A stretch of 10,607 nt of DNA from Candidatus Saccharimonadota bacterium (GTDB taxonomy: Bacteria; Patescibacteriota; Saccharimonadia; Saccharimonadales; UBA4665): positions 1-10,607 of the forward strand of contig JAQGGU010000023.1 in assembly GCA_028289265.1 (NCBI GenBank), given 5' to 3'. Shown in pieces: positions 2,890-9,724 of this stretch. The number at the start of each line of letters is the position of its first letter. Position 1 is the stretch's first letter. Made by a program: the position numbers and the translations under genes. Under the pieces are notes generated by a model, which was given only the letters and a program-made list of their open reading frames with translations, was not told where the DNA came from and searched no databases.

Positions 2890-3558
2890 ATGAGACTCAA
2901 CAAATACATCGCCCTTTCTACTGGTATAAGCCGCCGCGCAGCCGACGAAGCCGTTACCCAGAATAGGGTGCTTATAAACGGTATACGGCCGTCGATGGGC
3001 CAGCAGGTAAGCGACACGGACACCGTGACGCTTGATAACAGCGTCATAACGCCAGGCGTCGATACCATGACCATCATGCTCAATAAACCTTCGGGTTACG
3101 TCAGTAGCCGAGAGGGGCAGGGCAGCCGTACGGTCTATGATTTGCTACCAGCCGAACTGCACACGTTAAAAACCGTCGGACGCCTCGACAAGGACTCCAG
3201 TGGGCTTCTGCTGCTCACCTCGGACGGCACGCTGGCACACGAACTGACGCACCCCAGCTTTCAGAAGGTAAAGGCATACGAAGTAACCCTCGACAAGCCC
3301 TTGCAGCCACTCCACCGCCAAATGATCAGTGATCATGGCATTACTCTCGAAGATGGCGTCAGCAAATTAGAACTGGAACGCTTACACGACGGGGATGAAT
3401 GCAAATGGATCGTGCGCATGCACGAAGGCCGTAACCGCCAGATCCGTCGCACATTTGAGAGCCTTGGCTACAATCTACCCAGACTTCACCGCACACATTT
3501 TGGCAAATATATGTTGGGCGGCCTTAAGCTTGGTAGTTATACGCAGATAAAAAGGTAA
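2890..3558 (+). CDS. RsuA/RluB/RluE/RluF-family rRNA pseudouridine synthase
   Basis: This enzyme isomerises specific uridines in ribosomal RNA to pseudouridine. Residues 1-48 form an S4 RNA-binding domain (MRLNKYIALSTGISRRAADEA, then the RVLING turn). The catalytic domain starts at MLNKPSGYVSS (63-73). The catalytic aspartate is Asp100 in GRLDKDSSGLLLLT, the form typical of the RsuA/RluB branch. The late conserved block EGRNRQIRR lies near residue 180, and the fold closes with a C-terminal LxxG segment. At 222 aa it is a normal short member, without the long basic C-terminal extension seen in E. coli RluB. It is monocistronic, has its own -10 box, and converges with the next gene at an 18-bp gap. 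I cannot separate a 16S (RsuA) from a 23S (RluB-type) target by eye, so no symbol is given. Confidence 0.93.
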   Translation: MRLNKYIALSTGISRRAADEAVTQNRVLINGIRPSMGQQVSDTDTVTLDNSVITPGVDTMTIMLNKPSGYVSSREGQGSRTVYDLLPAELHTLKTVGRLDKDSSGLLLLTSDGTLAHELTHPSFQKVKAYEVTLDKPLQPLHRQMISDHGITLEDGVSKLELERLHDGDECKWIVRMHEGRNRQIRRTFESLGYNLPRLHRTHFGKYMLGGLKLGSYTQIKR

Positions 3559-4772: not shown

Positions 4773-6173
4773 ATGAGTAAAAAACTACCGATCGTCGCAA
4801 TCGTAGGCCGGGCTAACGTTGGAAAATCCAGCTTGTTCAATGCGATCCTGGAACGTAAAGAGGCTATAGTCGCCCGCGAGGCAGGTACTACCCGCGACAG
4901 CATCATGGCAAAAGCAGAGTATGGAGAGAACCAGTTTTGGCTCGTCGACACCGCCGGTATCAAAGACCCTGAAGACGACTTCGAATTTACTATTCAGGAA
5001 CAAATCATCCAGGCTGCTGACAGCGCCGACGTGATATGGGTTGTTGTCGAGTCCGATGTGCCAGTCACCGAAGAGGATCGCCGCGTCGCGAAGATGGCAC
5101 TTAAGAGCCGCAAACCCGTCTTCTTAGTCGTAAATAAGATAGATAAGGCTAAAGGACAGGACCTGACACAGTTCCTTAAGTTGGGTGTCAAAGATATCTT
5201 CCACACCAGCACCACGCAGGGCCGCGGCATCGACCAGCGTCTCACCAAGCTTGTAGAGGTCATCCCGCAAGTCACCGAATTGGAAGACGACAACCGCTTG
5301 CATATCGCGCTGCTCGGCCGTCCGAACGTAGGCAAATCCAGCTTGTTCAACTCTCTAGCCAAGAAGCAGCAGGCCATCGTCGCCGATAAAGCAGGTACGA
5401 CCCGCGACGTCAACCGCGCCATCGTCAAATACCACGAACGCGAAATGGAAATCATGGACACTGCCGGTATTCGCCGTTCAGGCAAGATAGAAGTCGGTAT
5501 CGAGAAATTCAGCGTTGTGCGCGCTCTGGCTGCTATCGAACAGTCAGATGTCTGCTTGCTACTCATGGATGCTAATGAGCTGAACACCGCCCTCGATCAG
5601 AAGATCGCTGGAATGGTCAAAGAAGCGGGCAAGGGGCTTATACTCGTCGTCAGCAAATGGGACACCATCAAGAACGAAGAAGGGGAGACTGATCCGTTCG
5701 CGCGCGACCGTATCGCCGCAGAGATCGCCCAGACGTATGATTTCGTGCCGTGGGCTCCACTTATATTCACCAGTGCTGTCACCGGCCAGAATGTTACCAA
5801 GATTTTTGAACTGGTCACCGAGATAGTCGAAGAGCGCAAAAAGCGCATCCCTACCGTACAGCTCAATAAATTCCTCCGTGAAATGATAGACAAACACCCG
5901 CCGGCCGGTCTCAAGAACCGCCAACCAAAGCTTAACTACATGGTGCAGGAAACAGACAACCCGACACCAGCTTTCAAGATATTCAGTTCGCACACGCAGT
6001 ATATCCACTGGAGCTACCGCCGGTACCTGGAGCGTGGTATGCGCGAGCGTTGGAGCTTCACCGGCACGCCAGTACAGATATGGTTCATCGAAAAGCACGA
6101 GACACACCGCCACGGAAACAGTCCTACACTGGCACCGCGCAAGCACAACTCACGTGCTGGCCTCAAGAAATAA
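4773..6173 (+). CDS. der: Ribosome-assembly GTPase Der (EngA), tandem G domains
   Basis: Der binds GTP and helps mature the 50S ribosomal subunit. G domain 1 has the P-loop at 12-19 (GRANVGKS, where Ala replaces the usual Pro), then GTTRDS, DTAGI and NKID. G domain 2 has its P-loop GRPNVGKS at 182-189, then GTTRD, DTAGIRR and SKWD, where Ser replaces the usual Asn of NKWD. The C-terminal KH-like domain includes KLNYMVQ and HWSYRRYLERGMRERWSFTGTPVQI. A short basic tail follows (THRHGNSPTLAPRKHNSRAGLKK). At 466 aa it matches the family's usual 440-500. The two G domains still share identical DNA (AAATCCAGCTTGTTCAA at both P-loops), reflecting the ancient internal duplication. The start is fixed by the promoter and by the protein beginning five residues before the first beta strand. 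Transcribed alone. Confidence 0.98.
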   Translation: MSKKLPIVAIVGRANVGKSSLFNAILERKEAIVAREAGTTRDSIMAKAEYGENQFWLVDTAGIKDPEDDFEFTIQEQIIQAADSADVIWVVVESDVPVTEEDRRVAKMALKSRKPVFLVVNKIDKAKGQDLTQFLKLGVKDIFHTSTTQGRGIDQRLTKLVEVIPQVTELEDDNRLHIALLGRPNVGKSSLFNSLAKKQQAIVADKAGTTRDVNRAIVKYHEREMEIMDTAGIRRSGKIEVGIEKFSVVRALAAIEQSDVCLLLMDANELNTALDQKIAGMVKEAGKGLILVVSKWDTIKNEEGETDPFARDRIAAEIAQTYDFVPWAPLIFTSAVTGQNVTKIFELVTEIVEERKKRIPTVQLNKFLREMIDKHPPAGLKNRQPKLNYMVQETDNPTPAFKIFSSHTQYIHWSYRRYLERGMRERWSFTGTPVQIWFIEKHETHRHGNSPTLAPRKHNSRAGLKK

Positions 6174-6550: not shown

Positions 6551-7192
6551 ATGGCGTTATTTCAACGAAAACCCCAAACTAGCAACCCGCTCAGCTATAC
6601 AACTATCGGGCTCAATAAAAATCTACTTATAGTTGGGCTCGGAAATCCTGGCAAAGAATACGATGACACGCGCCACAACATCGGCTTCACGTGCATCGAC
6701 GCATTCGTCGATAAGACAACCGAGATGGGACAGTGGGTCGACAAAAAAGACCAGAAGTGTCTAATGTCGACGGGGCAGATGGGCGAGACGCGCGTCATCG
6801 TCATCAAACCTACAACGTTCATGAACCTTAGCGGGGAAGCGGTACAGGCGGTCAGCCATTTTTATAAAATCCACCCCGACCAGATAGTCGTCGTGCATGA
6901 TGAGCTTGACATCAACTTCGGTCAGATACGCACCCGAAAAGGTGGCAGCGCCGCAGGGCACAACGGCATCAAATCCGTTACGCAGCACATGGGCGAAGAT
7001 TACGGCCGCGTCCGTATCGGTATCGGTCCGAAAGTTCCCGAGCAAATGGATAGCGCCGATTTTGTCCTACAAAAGTTTAGCCGTGAAGAGCAATCGCATA
7101 TGCCAGAACTAACACGTGAAGTAAATGCCATCCTCAGCGAGCTAATCTTCGGCACACCGATAGCAGCCGATACACGCAACTTCCTAATCTAG
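6551..7192 (+). CDS. pth: Peptidyl-tRNA hydrolase
   Basis: Pth cleaves the ester bond of peptidyl-tRNAs released early from ribosomes, recycling the tRNA; it is normally essential in bacteria. The signature GLGNPGKEYDDTRHNIGF (29-46) holds Asn32 and the catalytic His42, equivalent to Asn10 and His20 of the E. coli enzyme. TTFMNLSG (88-95), HDELD (116-120) and GGSAAGHNGIKS (from about 131) complete the active-site and tRNA-binding set, followed by RVRIGIGP. At 213 aa it is slightly long because of a 22-residue polar N-terminal extension before the first beta strand. That extension is supported by the -10 box placed six bases before its ATG and by the lack of a later ATG before the fold. It converges with the next minus-strand gene with only 5 bp between stop codons and no terminator between them. 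Confidence 0.97.
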   Translation: MALFQRKPQTSNPLSYTTIGLNKNLLIVGLGNPGKEYDDTRHNIGFTCIDAFVDKTTEMGQWVDKKDQKCLMSTGQMGETRVIVIKPTTFMNLSGEAVQAVSHFYKIHPDQIVVVHDELDINFGQIRTRKGGSAAGHNGIKSVTQHMGEDYGRVRIGIGPKVPEQMDSADFVLQKFSREEQSHMPELTREVNAILSELIFGTPIAADTRNFLI

Positions 7193-7615: not shown

Positions 7616-8071
7616 TTACAGGGCGGCGGCCTGGTCGTAACTAAGCTGCAACTCCTGGGCCTGGCGTACTTCCTGAATCCGTCGGGCAGCGGCCATATTG
7701 TAGTGCACAAGCACATTCATAGAAAATTCCACGGGCATGTCTTTTGGCTCATAATCAACAACACGCGGCTGTTCTACCATCGGACGAGGCGCTTGAACAA
7801 TAGCATCATACTCGCCACCCAGCTCAACAACCTTACGGAGCACACCCACTACGACACTTTGCGCAATGCCGGCATTCGTAAGATGTTCTCGGCGATCTTT
7901 GCCTTTTATAGTCTCGGCAGTTTCAGCATGTACATTGTGGACAAGCATCGCTCGCCCCGCCAGCTCCGTAAATTCATGCGGCGCATAGAAGGCAGGGGTA
8001 GCAGGCAGACCTAAAACTTTTTGCTGATCTTCAGTGGTAGCAAAAAACATCTTGTTTTGCGTTTCAATCAT
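7616..8071 (-). CDS. Hypothetical protein, 151 aa
   Basis: The family is not recognised. Starting at the ATG at 8071, the protein begins MIETQNKMFFATTEDQQKVLG. A further open stretch upstream to 8149 contains another ATG but overlaps the promoter and reads as non-coding (Cys/Phe/Tyr-rich), so I reject it. The protein looks soluble and mixed helical: FTELAGRAMLVHNVHAETAETIKG and IAQSVVVGVLRKVVELG in the middle, a proline-rich linker (QAPRPMVEQPRVVDYEPKDMP), then a long C-terminal helix (AAARRIQEVRQAQELQLSYDQAAAL). The start is supported by a near-perfect promoter ending seven bases before the ATG. It forms a same-strand pair with the 107-aa gene, 94 bp apart. Function unknown. Confidence 0.78.
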   Translation of the reverse strand: MIETQNKMFFATTEDQQKVLGLPATPAFYAPHEFTELAGRAMLVHNVHAETAETIKGKDRREHLTNAGIAQSVVVGVLRKVVELGGEYDAIVQAPRPMVEQPRVVDYEPKDMPVEFSMNVLVHYNMAAARRIQEVRQAQELQLSYDQAAAL

Positions 8072-8078
8072 ACTTACT

Positions 8079-8107
8079 ATTATAGCATACTTCTCGTGCT
8101 TTTGCAA
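8079..8107 (-). promoter_or_regulatory. Promoter of the 151-aa hypothetical gene
   Basis: On the minus strand TTGCAA (8107-8102), a 17-bp spacer whose last bases are TGC, and a perfect TATAAT (8084-8079). The box ends seven bases before the ATG at 8071. This is the clearest leaderless-type promoter in the window, having both an extended -10 and a consensus hexamer. Confidence 0.75.
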
Positions 8108-8180
8108 TCGATAACAGGGACGGACACAGAAAAAGCTATAGGTTAGCAAATATATCAGCCAATTCCATTATTAGTTTGAA

Positions 8181-8267
8181 TTTATTCCGAATTAAAAATG
8201 GCAGCTATAAGAGCAGTGATTGCTATTTAATTCATATTTATTCTGAATTAATTTCGGAATAAATATG
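8181..8267. repeat. AT-rich palindrome cluster, operator- or iteron-like
   Basis: TTTATTCCGAATTAA (8181-8195) recurs as TTTATTCTGAATTAA at 8237-8251, and again inverted with one extra base (TTAATTTCGGAATAAA) at 8248-8263. The last two form a dyad with perfect 11-bp arms: CATATTTATTC (8233-8243) and GAATAAATATG (8257-8267). The first copy is 56 bp from the second. The repeats lie upstream of the 151-aa gene and beside the two-way terminator, in a gene-free stretch. They could be a regulator binding site, a plasmid or element remnant, or a protein-binding locus; nothing adjacent decides this. Confidence 0.6.
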
Positions 8268-8294
8268 TCAGTTATCAAGAGGAACAGCGAGGCA

Positions 8295-8322
8295 ATGAGG
8301 AAACTCATCCCGGTTTCCTCAT
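8295..8322. other. Perfect 10-bp hairpin beside the two-way terminator
   Basis: ATGAGGAAAC (8295-8304) and GTTTCCTCAT (8313-8322) pair without mismatch around an 8-nt loop. It begins the run of hairpins that continues to about 8683. On the minus strand it lies just past the terminator, so it may belong to another transcript or to DNA-level structure. Confidence 0.5.
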
Positions 8323-8324
8323 AC

Positions 8325-8373
8325 AAAAAAAGGCCTACAAGAGGGGGTGGGCACCGCTTGTAGGCCTTTTTTT
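8325..8373. terminator. Two-way intrinsic terminator with a perfect 17-bp stem
   Basis: The left arm (8325-8341, seven A then GGCCTACAAG) and the right arm (8357-8373, CTTGTAGGCC then seven T) are exactly complementary around a 15-nt loop. Each strand reads as a GC-rich 10-bp stem followed by a T-run, so it should stop transcription from both directions. The nearest protein genes on both sides point away from it or start well beyond it, so its users are probably non-coding transcripts: the candidate RNA on the minus strand and something arising near 8270 on the plus strand. Confidence 0.88.
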
Positions 8374-8713
8374 GAGGACGATTAGCTGCGAAAGTTAATC
8401 GTCCTCCACAACGGCCCTTCAACCCACCTTGAAGGCCTCCGCTTGAGATAACTCGCAATGATATATCTCAAACGGCCCACTCATAGGTTTTTTCCGTTAT
8501 TCACCACGACTCAAATAAAACGAGGGGGAATACGGGGTTAAAGGGACTAGATTACGTCTTACTTTCGTAAAGGCGCAATCTAGTGTTTTAGAGCGCTTAT
8601 GGTCATGCCATAAGCCAAACGCAAGTGGAGGGTAACAACTTGGGAGCTTAGCACGCTCTAAAACTGTCTAACAAATTGTTAGAAAATTGGGGGGTATAAG
8701 GTGCGTAAATCAC
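8325..8713 (-). ncRNA. Candidate structured non-coding RNA of unknown family, about 390 nt
   Basis: The interval has no credible ORF but holds a dense series of perfect stems. From right to left these are: an 8+1+8 palindrome at 8667-8683; an 11-bp stem GTTTTAGAGCG / CGCTCTAAAAC (8585-8595 / 8654-8664) closing a junction with a 7-bp hairpin at 8596-8614 and a 5-bp one at 8622-8642; an 8-bp stem (8546-8553 / 8577-8584) with an inner stem; an 8-bp stem (8443-8450 / 8464-8471); a 9-bp stem with one bulge (8413-8437); an 11-bp stem (8374-8384 / 8396-8406); and a 17-bp terminator hairpin (8325-8373). The minus strand is preferred because that reading ends the structured block at the terminator, gives a GAAA tetraloop closed by C-G at 8563-8566, and has TGTAAGTT (8727-8720) as a possible -10 box. 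I see no tmRNA, RNase P RNA or SRP RNA signature. Strand and ends are inferred. Confidence 0.5.
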
Positions 8714-8841
8714 ATAAGTAACTTACAGATTGCAATTCTAGCAAGAAAGTGTCCTTATGTCAATACTAAAATACATATTCGCATAATTTACCACTTATTA
8801 ACATAAACACAATTTCCTGCTCATGCTTGTACTACACGGGC

Positions 8842-8867
8842 AGGGGAGTACTATGAAACCACTATGA
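8842..8867 (+). promoter_or_regulatory. Strong SD plus 4-codon leader ORF (MKPL) coupled to dprA
   Basis: AGGGGAG (8842-8848) stands four bases before an ATG at 8853 that opens ATGAAACCACTATGA, encoding MKPL and then a TGA. This stop overlaps the dprA ATG at 8864 as ATGA. The SD is optimally placed for the mini-ORF, but 15 bases from the dprA ATG, too far for normal use. Ribosomes could finish MKPL and restart at dprA. Alternatively, the mini-ORF is chance and the SD acts from a distance. Confidence 0.45.
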
Positions 8868-9724
8868 GTATCAGTACACTCACGGTTAGGGATTCGCCGT
8901 ATACCGCTATCTTTGAGGGTATTGAACCGGCCGTTGATAGGCTGTATGTCACAGGCGACAACCTGGAGGACCTCCTTAGCCGGCCGCGGGTAGCTATCGT
9001 AGGGAGCCGTAAGATATCGGCTTACGGGAAGACAATAACGGCACAATTCGCCGCCGAACTAGCCAGACAAGGGATAGTCATCGTTAGCGGCCTCGCGTAT
9101 GGAGTTGACGCCACTGCGCACCGAGCGACACTCGAGGCGGGCGGACTGACCATCGCCGTACTGCCAAGTAGCATCCAGGAAATCTACCCAGCGGCTCACC
9201 GCGGTCTCGCCGAGCAGATAGCACAGAGCGGGGGAGCGCTACTTAGCGAGTATGAACCTGACACACCGACCATGAAACATAACTTTATCGGCCGCAACCG
9301 GATCGTCAGCGGCATGAGTGATGTCTTGCTCATCACAGAGGCAGCGATAAACAGCGGTACCATGCACACTGCACGCTTTGCCCTAGAGCAGGGAAAAGAC
9401 GTACTGGCCATACCTGGCAATATCACGAGCTTGACTTCGGCCGGCACTAATAATCTTATAAAGTCTGGCGCCACTCCCGTCACCTGTCCCCAGGACGTAC
9501 TACATGCACTTGGGATCAATACGACCGTCAGCATACCTAAGGTGAAGGGCAGCAACACTATCGAGCAAACTATACTCAATCTCATGGAGGAGAATATAGC
9601 TGATGCTAACGAACTTCTTATCAGGAGCGAGCTCTCTACTGACCAGTTCAACCAAGCACTGGTCATGATGGAAATCACCGGCAAAATCCGCGCTGTCGGT
9701 GCCAATCAGTGGACTATCCGCTAG
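8864..9724 (+). CDS. dprA: DNA processing protein DprA (Smf)
   Basis: DprA binds incoming single-stranded DNA during natural transformation and loads RecA on it. The Rossmann-like core is complete: VAIVGSRKISAYG (43-55), VSGLAYGVDATAHRATLEAGG, IAVLPSSIQEIYPAAH, GALLSEYEP, then RNRIVSGMSDVLLITEA and the late block AIPGNITSLTSAGTNNLIKSGA. A winged-helix-like C-terminal domain (about residues 220-286, TIEQTILNLMEENIADANELLIRSEL onward) is present. The N-terminal SAM-like domain seen in many DprA proteins is missing or reduced to about 12 residues, consistent with 286 aa. No in-frame start exists between the upstream TAA at 8804 and this ATG, so the start is firm. Upstream lies the long non-coding block; 39 bp downstream is a hypothetical gene with its own promoter. 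Other competence genes are not in view. Confidence 0.96.
   Translation: MSISTLTVRDSPYTAIFEGIEPAVDRLYVTGDNLEDLLSRPRVAIVGSRKISAYGKTITAQFAAELARQGIVIVSGLAYGVDATAHRATLEAGGLTIAVLPSSIQEIYPAAHRGLAEQIAQSGGALLSEYEPDTPTMKHNFIGRNRIVSGMSDVLLITEAAINSGTMHTARFALEQGKDVLAIPGNITSLTSAGTNNLIKSGATPVTCPQDVLHALGINTTVSIPKVKGSNTIEQTILNLMEENIADANELLIRSELSTDQFNQALVMMEITGKIRAVGANQWTIR

Follow-up and report, generated by a model that had tools for sequence, protein, structure and literature searches.

Evidence for a large structured non-coding RNA gene widespread in one order of Saccharibacteria

The window analysed here, a stretch of 10,607 nt from a Candidatus Saccharimonadota genome that is 83% complete, carries on its minus strand, at about 8325..8728, what is almost certainly a genuine gene for a structured RNA, roughly 404 nt long. 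The explanation that best fits the whole of the data, and in which we have high though not full confidence, is a free-standing, large structured non-coding RNA gene that is widespread in one order of the Saccharibacteria. It has a strand-specifically conserved promoter and a terminator, compensatory base changes in its helices, conserved neighbouring genes and no sign of coding. A previous sequence-only reading of the window had proposed an undescribed structured RNA at 8325..8713, and this proposal stands as far as tested, with "undescribed" referring to Rfam 15 and an open-access paper library.

To our knowledge, large RNA genes marking most of a bacterial order are rare. The genomes of this order are reduced (0.6–1.6 Mb among those compared), yet a 400-nt RNA gene has been kept. 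Rfam-based annotation leaves the locus empty, a gap that a new Rfam family would close. According to PMC10633639, Saccharibacteria include most of the cultivated Patescibacteria and are genetically manipulable, so that the function of the RNA is directly testable.

Materials and methods

Two models were used for searches. R1 is a covariance model of the 5′ domain built from 20 sequences, with which 392 genomes of the class and 379 genomes of the phylum were searched under strict filters. R2, a second model including divergent members, was run on 33 genomes: 20 listed genomes without an R1 match, G092, and 12 genomes from other orders and classes.

The sequence set comprised 109 distinct parsed sequences, while 25 loci could not be parsed because they held partial RNAs or variant motifs or, in the case of L132, because the stretch had been guessed and may not contain the RNA. 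For the R1 alignment, 100 of 172 loci were chosen, mostly omitting duplicates and near-duplicates, and a tighter cut-off removed 12 of 111 matches (11 self-matches on the opposite strand and the weak true match L129), which left 99 sequences. For helix P4, seven sequences were added to these and L166 was skipped, giving 105 sequences. The P4 search pattern fixed positions 2–4 and limited the others, and the partner strand was picked as the best complement.

Gene boundaries and genomic context

In the window, the RNA locus lies between the pth side and the dprA side. One flank holds pth (6551-7192), der (4773-6173) and a pseudouridine synthase gene (2890-3558), the other dprA (8864-9724). The RNA gene diverges from dprA, and pth converges on its terminator. 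Among 81 loci (80 from the pattern scan described below, plus the window), 71 have pth, 68 topA, 59 der and 47 dprA, and wherever found these four genes lay on the strand opposite to the RNA; the loci other than the window were at most 8 kb long, so missing neighbours are partly due to sequence ends. At the loci L184 and L187 of divergent genera, a topA-like start follows the RNA terminator on the same strand by eye, unlike the usual opposite-strand layout. A 177-aa ORF (7616-8149, minus strand) between the RNA and pth lies on the strand of the RNA and had no NCBIfam match.

Upstream of the RNA, a −35 element TTGACA, a 17-nt spacer and an extended −10 element TGC-TAGAAT (8735..8763, minus strand) form a strong-looking, putative sigma70-type promoter of the gene's own, the pattern of which is kept in homologues. 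A −35 TTGAYN with an extended −10 preceded the RNA in 101 of 105 homologues, compared with 1 of 105 on the opposite strand (first 200 nt, control). The minus-strand orientation suggested from the sequence alone is thereby borne out as far as tested, and an RNA on the plus strand was rejected on the promoter counts. With transcription expected to begin 7 nt after the −10 element, the start should lie near 8728, and with the end at the terminator the unit covers 8325..8728 (minus strand). The earlier estimate of about 390 nt thus roughly holds, the unit measured from this promoter being slightly longer.

The region had been described as having no usable ORF. An 88-aa listed ORF (8192-8458, minus strand) overlaps the 3′ half of the RNA, yet the homologues carry no coding sign, because their longest sense ORFs (median 34 aa, maximum 111 aa in 105 homologues) are no longer than those in shuffled letters (median 43, maximum 114). 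A protein-coding gene was rejected on this basis.

Fold and parts of the RNA

The dense hairpins reported for 8325..8713 are real and far beyond chance: their stems were recovered by a repeat finder, and the minus-strand fold of this segment (−153.8 kcal/mol, z −11.2) was more stable than each of 100 shuffles. For the plus strand, a less extreme z of −8.5 was obtained, likewise with 0 of 100 shuffles as stable. All parts are given below from the 5′ end on the minus strand.

The 5′ hairpin P1 (8704..8727) has arms that change in relatives and can still pair (by eye, uncounted). It is followed by a probably unpaired segment, GYACCUUAUACCCC (8689..8704), in which GYACCUU is mostly invariant and the remainder strongly conserved, and by the 7-bp hairpin P2 (8667..8683). 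P3 (8585..8664) consists of a perfect 11-bp closing helix (8654-8664/8585-8595) and the enclosed part. This is the stem that was said to close a multi-branch junction, and two hairpins are indeed enclosed by it in the predicted fold: P3a (8623..8641), a short stem capped by the nearly invariant loop UACCCUCC, and the variable hairpin P3b (8595..8615), for which the repeat finder gave a perfect 8-bp stem (8595-8602/8608-8615). An extra hairpin at 8546..8584 with 15-nt arms (8546-8560/8570-8584, 87%), defined by the repeat finder and by comparison with relatives, is also present in L003 and absent from the other three same-genus relatives (L004–L006).

The 5′ strand of the long-range helix P4, CCCUUUAACC (8536..8545), was assigned by pairing across homologues. 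Its 3′ strand is GGUUGAAGGG (8415..8424), with GGUGG directly before it. Between the two lies a variable middle domain (8425..8535), in which the repeat finder located 12-nt arms (8439-8450/8464-8475, 92%). By a crude sorting rule the window's middle domain is of type a; the same rule assigned 14 of 99 sequences to type a, 49 to type b and 36 to other forms. A variable linker hairpin of 13–14 bp (8374..8406, repeat finder) leads to the terminator hairpin (8325..8373), whose 17-bp stem (8325-8341/8357-8373) and U run agree with the intrinsic minus-strand terminator noted earlier. The terminator is flanked by A and T runs on both sides. Among relatives its stem varies and its loop, GCGGUGCCCACCCCCUC (8341..8357) in the window, hardly does; the middle domain holds G-rich strands with complementarity to this conserved loop. 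Just past the 3′ end of the RNA, two more hairpins (8233-8267 and 8295-8322) lie outside the conserved unit.

The sequence-only reading had also pointed to AACGGCCC at 8410 and 8471 as the basis of a switch between alternative pairings. Both copies are present; the switch was rejected for lack of support, since same-genus relatives, L003 and L004 among them, have not retained the repeat.

Compensatory base changes

Compensatory changes in the stems, as expected of a structured non-coding RNA gene, are present in related genomes in both P3 and P4, which excludes the outcome that there are none. In the R1 alignment of 99 sequences, 97.1% of the cells pair (shuffles: 85.0%) and both sides change in 14 of 20 pairs, values attained by none of 500 shuffles. 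These figures lean towards structure, since the sequences were aligned to this very model and relatedness among sequences can by itself lift such values above those of shuffles. When the partner is slid by 1–3 columns, pairing falls to 27–46%. The bulk of this covariation comes from P3, with changes on both sides at 11 of 12 model pairs and 98.9% of cells paired. In the f34 sequences that were read, the letters of P3 differ throughout and the pairing is kept. P2 contributes changes on both sides at 3 of 8 pairs (94.2% of cells paired, 99 sequences).

For P4, which pairs CCCUUUAAC with GUUGAAGGG in most sequences, 944 of 945 cells are paired in 105 sequences, while shuffles reach 96.4% on average and 97.0% at most. 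Changes on both sides occur at five of nine positions: CG/GC at position 1, UA/AU at 5, UG/UA/GC at 6, AU/UA at 8, and CG/GC/AU/UA at 9. Given the search pattern and the choice of partner described above, these P4 figures call for caution, but the partner strand lies beside GGUGG in 91 of the 105 sequences; this GGUGG is absent from the other 14, including all six of genera g81 and g87. In L183, P4 is replaced. Within this fixed frame the middle domain takes at least three forms. In many relatives AGYGAG can pair with UUCRCU, and GCGAG never occurred together with UUCAC in the 39 sequences caught by a simple pattern.

Fixed, probably unpaired segments and a candidate pseudoknot

In 104 of 105 sequences, the loop of P3a carries either UACCCUCC or UACCUCC. 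By rows, ACCCUCCAC was found in 97, the shorter form ACCUCCAC in six and ACCCUCCGC in one, with one of the 105 rows unmatched by the pattern. The terminator loop contains GCCCACC in 106 of 106 sequences despite the changing stem, the pattern itself having been used to find the loop. A Watson-Crick complement of at least 6 to this loop exists in the middle domain of 90 of 105 sequences, compared with 12% of shuffles, and by eye two G-rich strands compete as the partner. From these complementarities, a pseudoknot in which the GCCCACC loop pairs with one of these strands is a plausible candidate; the partners of fixed loops are unproven because fixed letters cannot covary. A further point against the pseudoknot is the lack of GGUGG beside P4 in 14 of 105 sequences. 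Another candidate, pairing of GYACC of the 5′ segment with GGUGC of the terminator loop, fits many sequences but was rejected, as the loop letters differ by eye in f34. Peripheral hairpins that vary around unpaired segments that do not would be the pattern expected of a molecule binding something constant.

Distribution across genomes

When the 389 nt of 8325..8713 were compared at the DNA level with 98 whole genomes of the order, among them that of the window, 81 showed a match at E ≤ 0.001. At the loose threshold of E ≤ 1 the number rose to 97 of 98, mostly as separate conserved pieces. In 30 extracted RNAs, these pieces align as one RNA in unchanged order.

The R1 model matched 208 of the 392 class genomes, belonging to 109 of 151 genera, and 24 of the 379 phylum genomes, and all of these matches lie inside the window's order. 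The RNA occurs, next to housekeeping genes, in most of the genera sampled from a single order. There was one R1 match per genome in 206 of the 208 and two in each of the remaining genomes, G014 and G170. The two copies in G170 are L158 and L159, and L095 and L107 are two contigs of one assembly with the same lengths. One assembly with two copies of the RNA near contig ends may hold either a true second copy or the result of an assembly break or strain mixture.

No R1 match was obtained in 184 of the 392 class genomes. At least 20 of these, namely all that are listed, belong to the same order (four in the window's family f1, 16 in f34); the other 164 are unlisted. At E ≤ 1, R2 matched seven of its 33 genomes, namely G092, five of five of genus g87 and one of ten of g81. 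Six of the seven scores were weak (E 0.0035–0.053), that of G092 being 2e-7; when read, these sequences show the elements known from the other homologues, in unchanged order and including the terminator loop. At the same threshold, R2 had no match in the 12 genomes from outside the order, in nine of the ten g81 genomes, in the single g83 genome and in the four misses of the window's own family (86–95% complete). Some genomes of the order, mainly of g81, matched neither model, so the RNA may not be present throughout it.

Scanning named genomes with a sequence pattern yielded 85 stretches. The 80 listed ones are labelled Saccharibacteria, Saccharimonadia, Saccharimonadales or Saccharimonas, or carry an unspecific label (bacterium, Patescibacteria). 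Going by these labels, the order is probably the Saccharimonadales.

Comparison with known RNA families

Neither the window nor ten homologous loci matched any of the 4227 families of Rfam 15 at E ≤ 1, and at E ≤ 10 there were 7 and 6 matches, all far below the gathering score and at chance level. A search of an open-access library turned up no paper recognisable as a description of the RNA; a description may exist among subscription papers, most of which lay outside the scope of this search, or among bioRxiv preprints, all of which did. Judged by these two sources, the RNA family would be new.

The impression that the RNA is not RNase P RNA, tmRNA or SRP RNA was supported with the individual models, as there was no match to the locus with RNase P RNA (RF00010) at E ≤ 1, no score with tmRNA (RF00023) or ARAGORN, no match with SRP RNA (RF00169, RF01854) and no score with 6S RNA (RF00013). 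RNase P RNA genes over the cut-off lie elsewhere in 18 of 21 genomes, the others being G000 (the window genome, 83% complete), G010 and G066. For tmRNA, genes over the cut-off also lie elsewhere in 18 of 21 genomes, and two more were full-length and below the cut-off; in G062 only tRNA-sized matches were found. In the window genome, the tmRNA is on another contig (C16).

Each SRP RNA model gave a match in 0 of the 21 genomes, with a sensitivity that is limited because both also miss the control Bacillus subtilis. SRP RNA not having been found elsewhere, a replacement SRP RNA was worth testing. The protein Ffh (TIGR00959) was over the cut-off in 0 of 21 relatives and 0 of 192 phylum genomes. 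The 14 control genomes all gave a match, 10 of them over the cut-off; hence no clear partner for an SRP-type RNA is visible. The signal recognition particle may be absent from, or very diverged in, many Patescibacteria. A section on Ffh-related proteins in PMC8321541 includes two patescibacterial sequences, which speaks against a firm conclusion of absence. An identity of the RNA with RNase P RNA, tmRNA, SRP RNA or 6S RNA was rejected on model scores together with the copies elsewhere or the missing Ffh.

P3 also shares the letters GUUUUAGAGC with the Cas9 repeat/tracrRNA. The resemblance to tracrRNA was rejected as chance, as the letters of P3 differ in f34 and there is no cas gene among the identified neighbours.

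Possible function

Large structured bacterial RNAs with unassigned function are, in a broad sense, a known kind. OLE, GOLLD, ROOL and raiA are large structured non-coding RNAs of bacteria whose function is unclear, and the RNA described here resembles them in being long, free-standing and lineage-restricted, with many helices, long-range pairing and fixed unpaired blocks. It differs from them in having no Rfam match and in spanning most sampled genera of an order beside housekeeping genes. With 6S RNA, RNase P RNA and tmRNA it shares a gene of its own, usually single per genome, and a widespread occurrence in its lineage, whereas it does not score with their models and the matches to these lie elsewhere.

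The anatomy suggests a trans-acting structural RNA because of the gene's own promoter and terminator, the usually single match per genome, the variable periphery and the fixed unpaired segments. In the mechanism we propose, the RNA would be transcribed from its own promoter, and the intrinsic terminator hairpin would itself belong to the conserved molecule. P1, P2 and P3 with its nearly fixed C-rich loop would make up the 5′ domain, the long-range helix P4 would close a replaceable middle domain, and the nearly fixed C-rich loop of the 3′ hairpin may fold back onto a G-rich strand within that domain. The RNA would be a trans-acting molecule that most likely forms the RNA core of a ribonucleoprotein and offers its fixed unpaired segments for contact. 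To this ribonucleoprotein-core mechanism we give about an even chance. A bolder version is put forward tentatively and seems rather less probable, the more so as many genomes of the order gave no R1 match: the RNA might be at the heart of an essential ribonucleoprotein without a known counterpart in other groups, comparable in rank to RNase P RNA, tmRNA or 6S RNA and possibly with catalytic activity. It would then be a housekeeping RNA machine whose origin lies within a single order of epibiotic bacteria with reduced genomes.

Among the alternatives, a multi-target regulatory RNA survives best, although we regard it as unlikely. Its C-rich loops UACCCUCC, GCCCACCCC and UAUACCCC would pair with ribosome-binding sites of mRNAs, in the manner of RNAIII of Staphylococcus aureus, the C-rich loops of which pair with the G-rich ribosome-binding sites of mRNAs. 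Both RNAs have a size of about 400–500 nt, many hairpins and C-rich loops, one of them in the terminator hairpin, and three C-rich segments are conserved here; unlike RNAIII, the present RNA has no conserved ORF, and no quorum-sensing gene is found among its identified neighbours. In 200 kb, one fifth of one sister genome, with crude start calls and small counts, AGGAG preceded 19 of 162 start codons (about 1.6 expected), and complements of the loops occurred as GTGGAG (1), TGGAGG (1), GGAGGG (2), GGGTGG (1) and GGTGGG (2), slightly above the 0.2–0.5 expected for each. Few genes carry a loop complement, the counts being too few to judge, and the long conserved architecture would exceed what such pairing needs.

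A new ribozyme, in which the conserved unpaired segments would form an active site, is very unlikely. Size, the long-range helix, the possible pseudoknot and the fixed unpaired segments would resemble those of large ribozymes, but there is no known substrate or cleavage site. Still less probable is a cis-acting element that would serve dprA or pth as antisense RNA, leader or bidirectional terminator. The conserved neighbours and the A and T runs on both sides of a terminator on which pth converges would fit it; on the other hand, the RNA gene and dprA are divergent, the RNA is preceded by a promoter of its own and does not form the leader of genes on the opposite strand, a conserved fold of 404 nt is not needed for a terminator, and in L184 and L187 the topA-like gene lies on the same strand (by eye).

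A diverged copy of RNase P RNA, tmRNA, SRP RNA or 6S RNA would agree with size and spread and with the SRP RNA not found elsewhere, but can practically be dismissed in view of the RNase P RNA and tmRNA genes elsewhere, the lack of Rfam matches, the Ffh results and weak 6S-like matches at other loci. These 6S-like matches occur in three of the 21 genomes (G060:C51:16563-16716, G009:C5:117588-117670 and G012:C52:5179-5323) with 27–32 bits, below the cut-off. In each of these genomes the match lies about 0.4–1.4 kb away from the gene for RNase P RNA; the three are possibly a diverged 6S RNA of Saccharibacteria.
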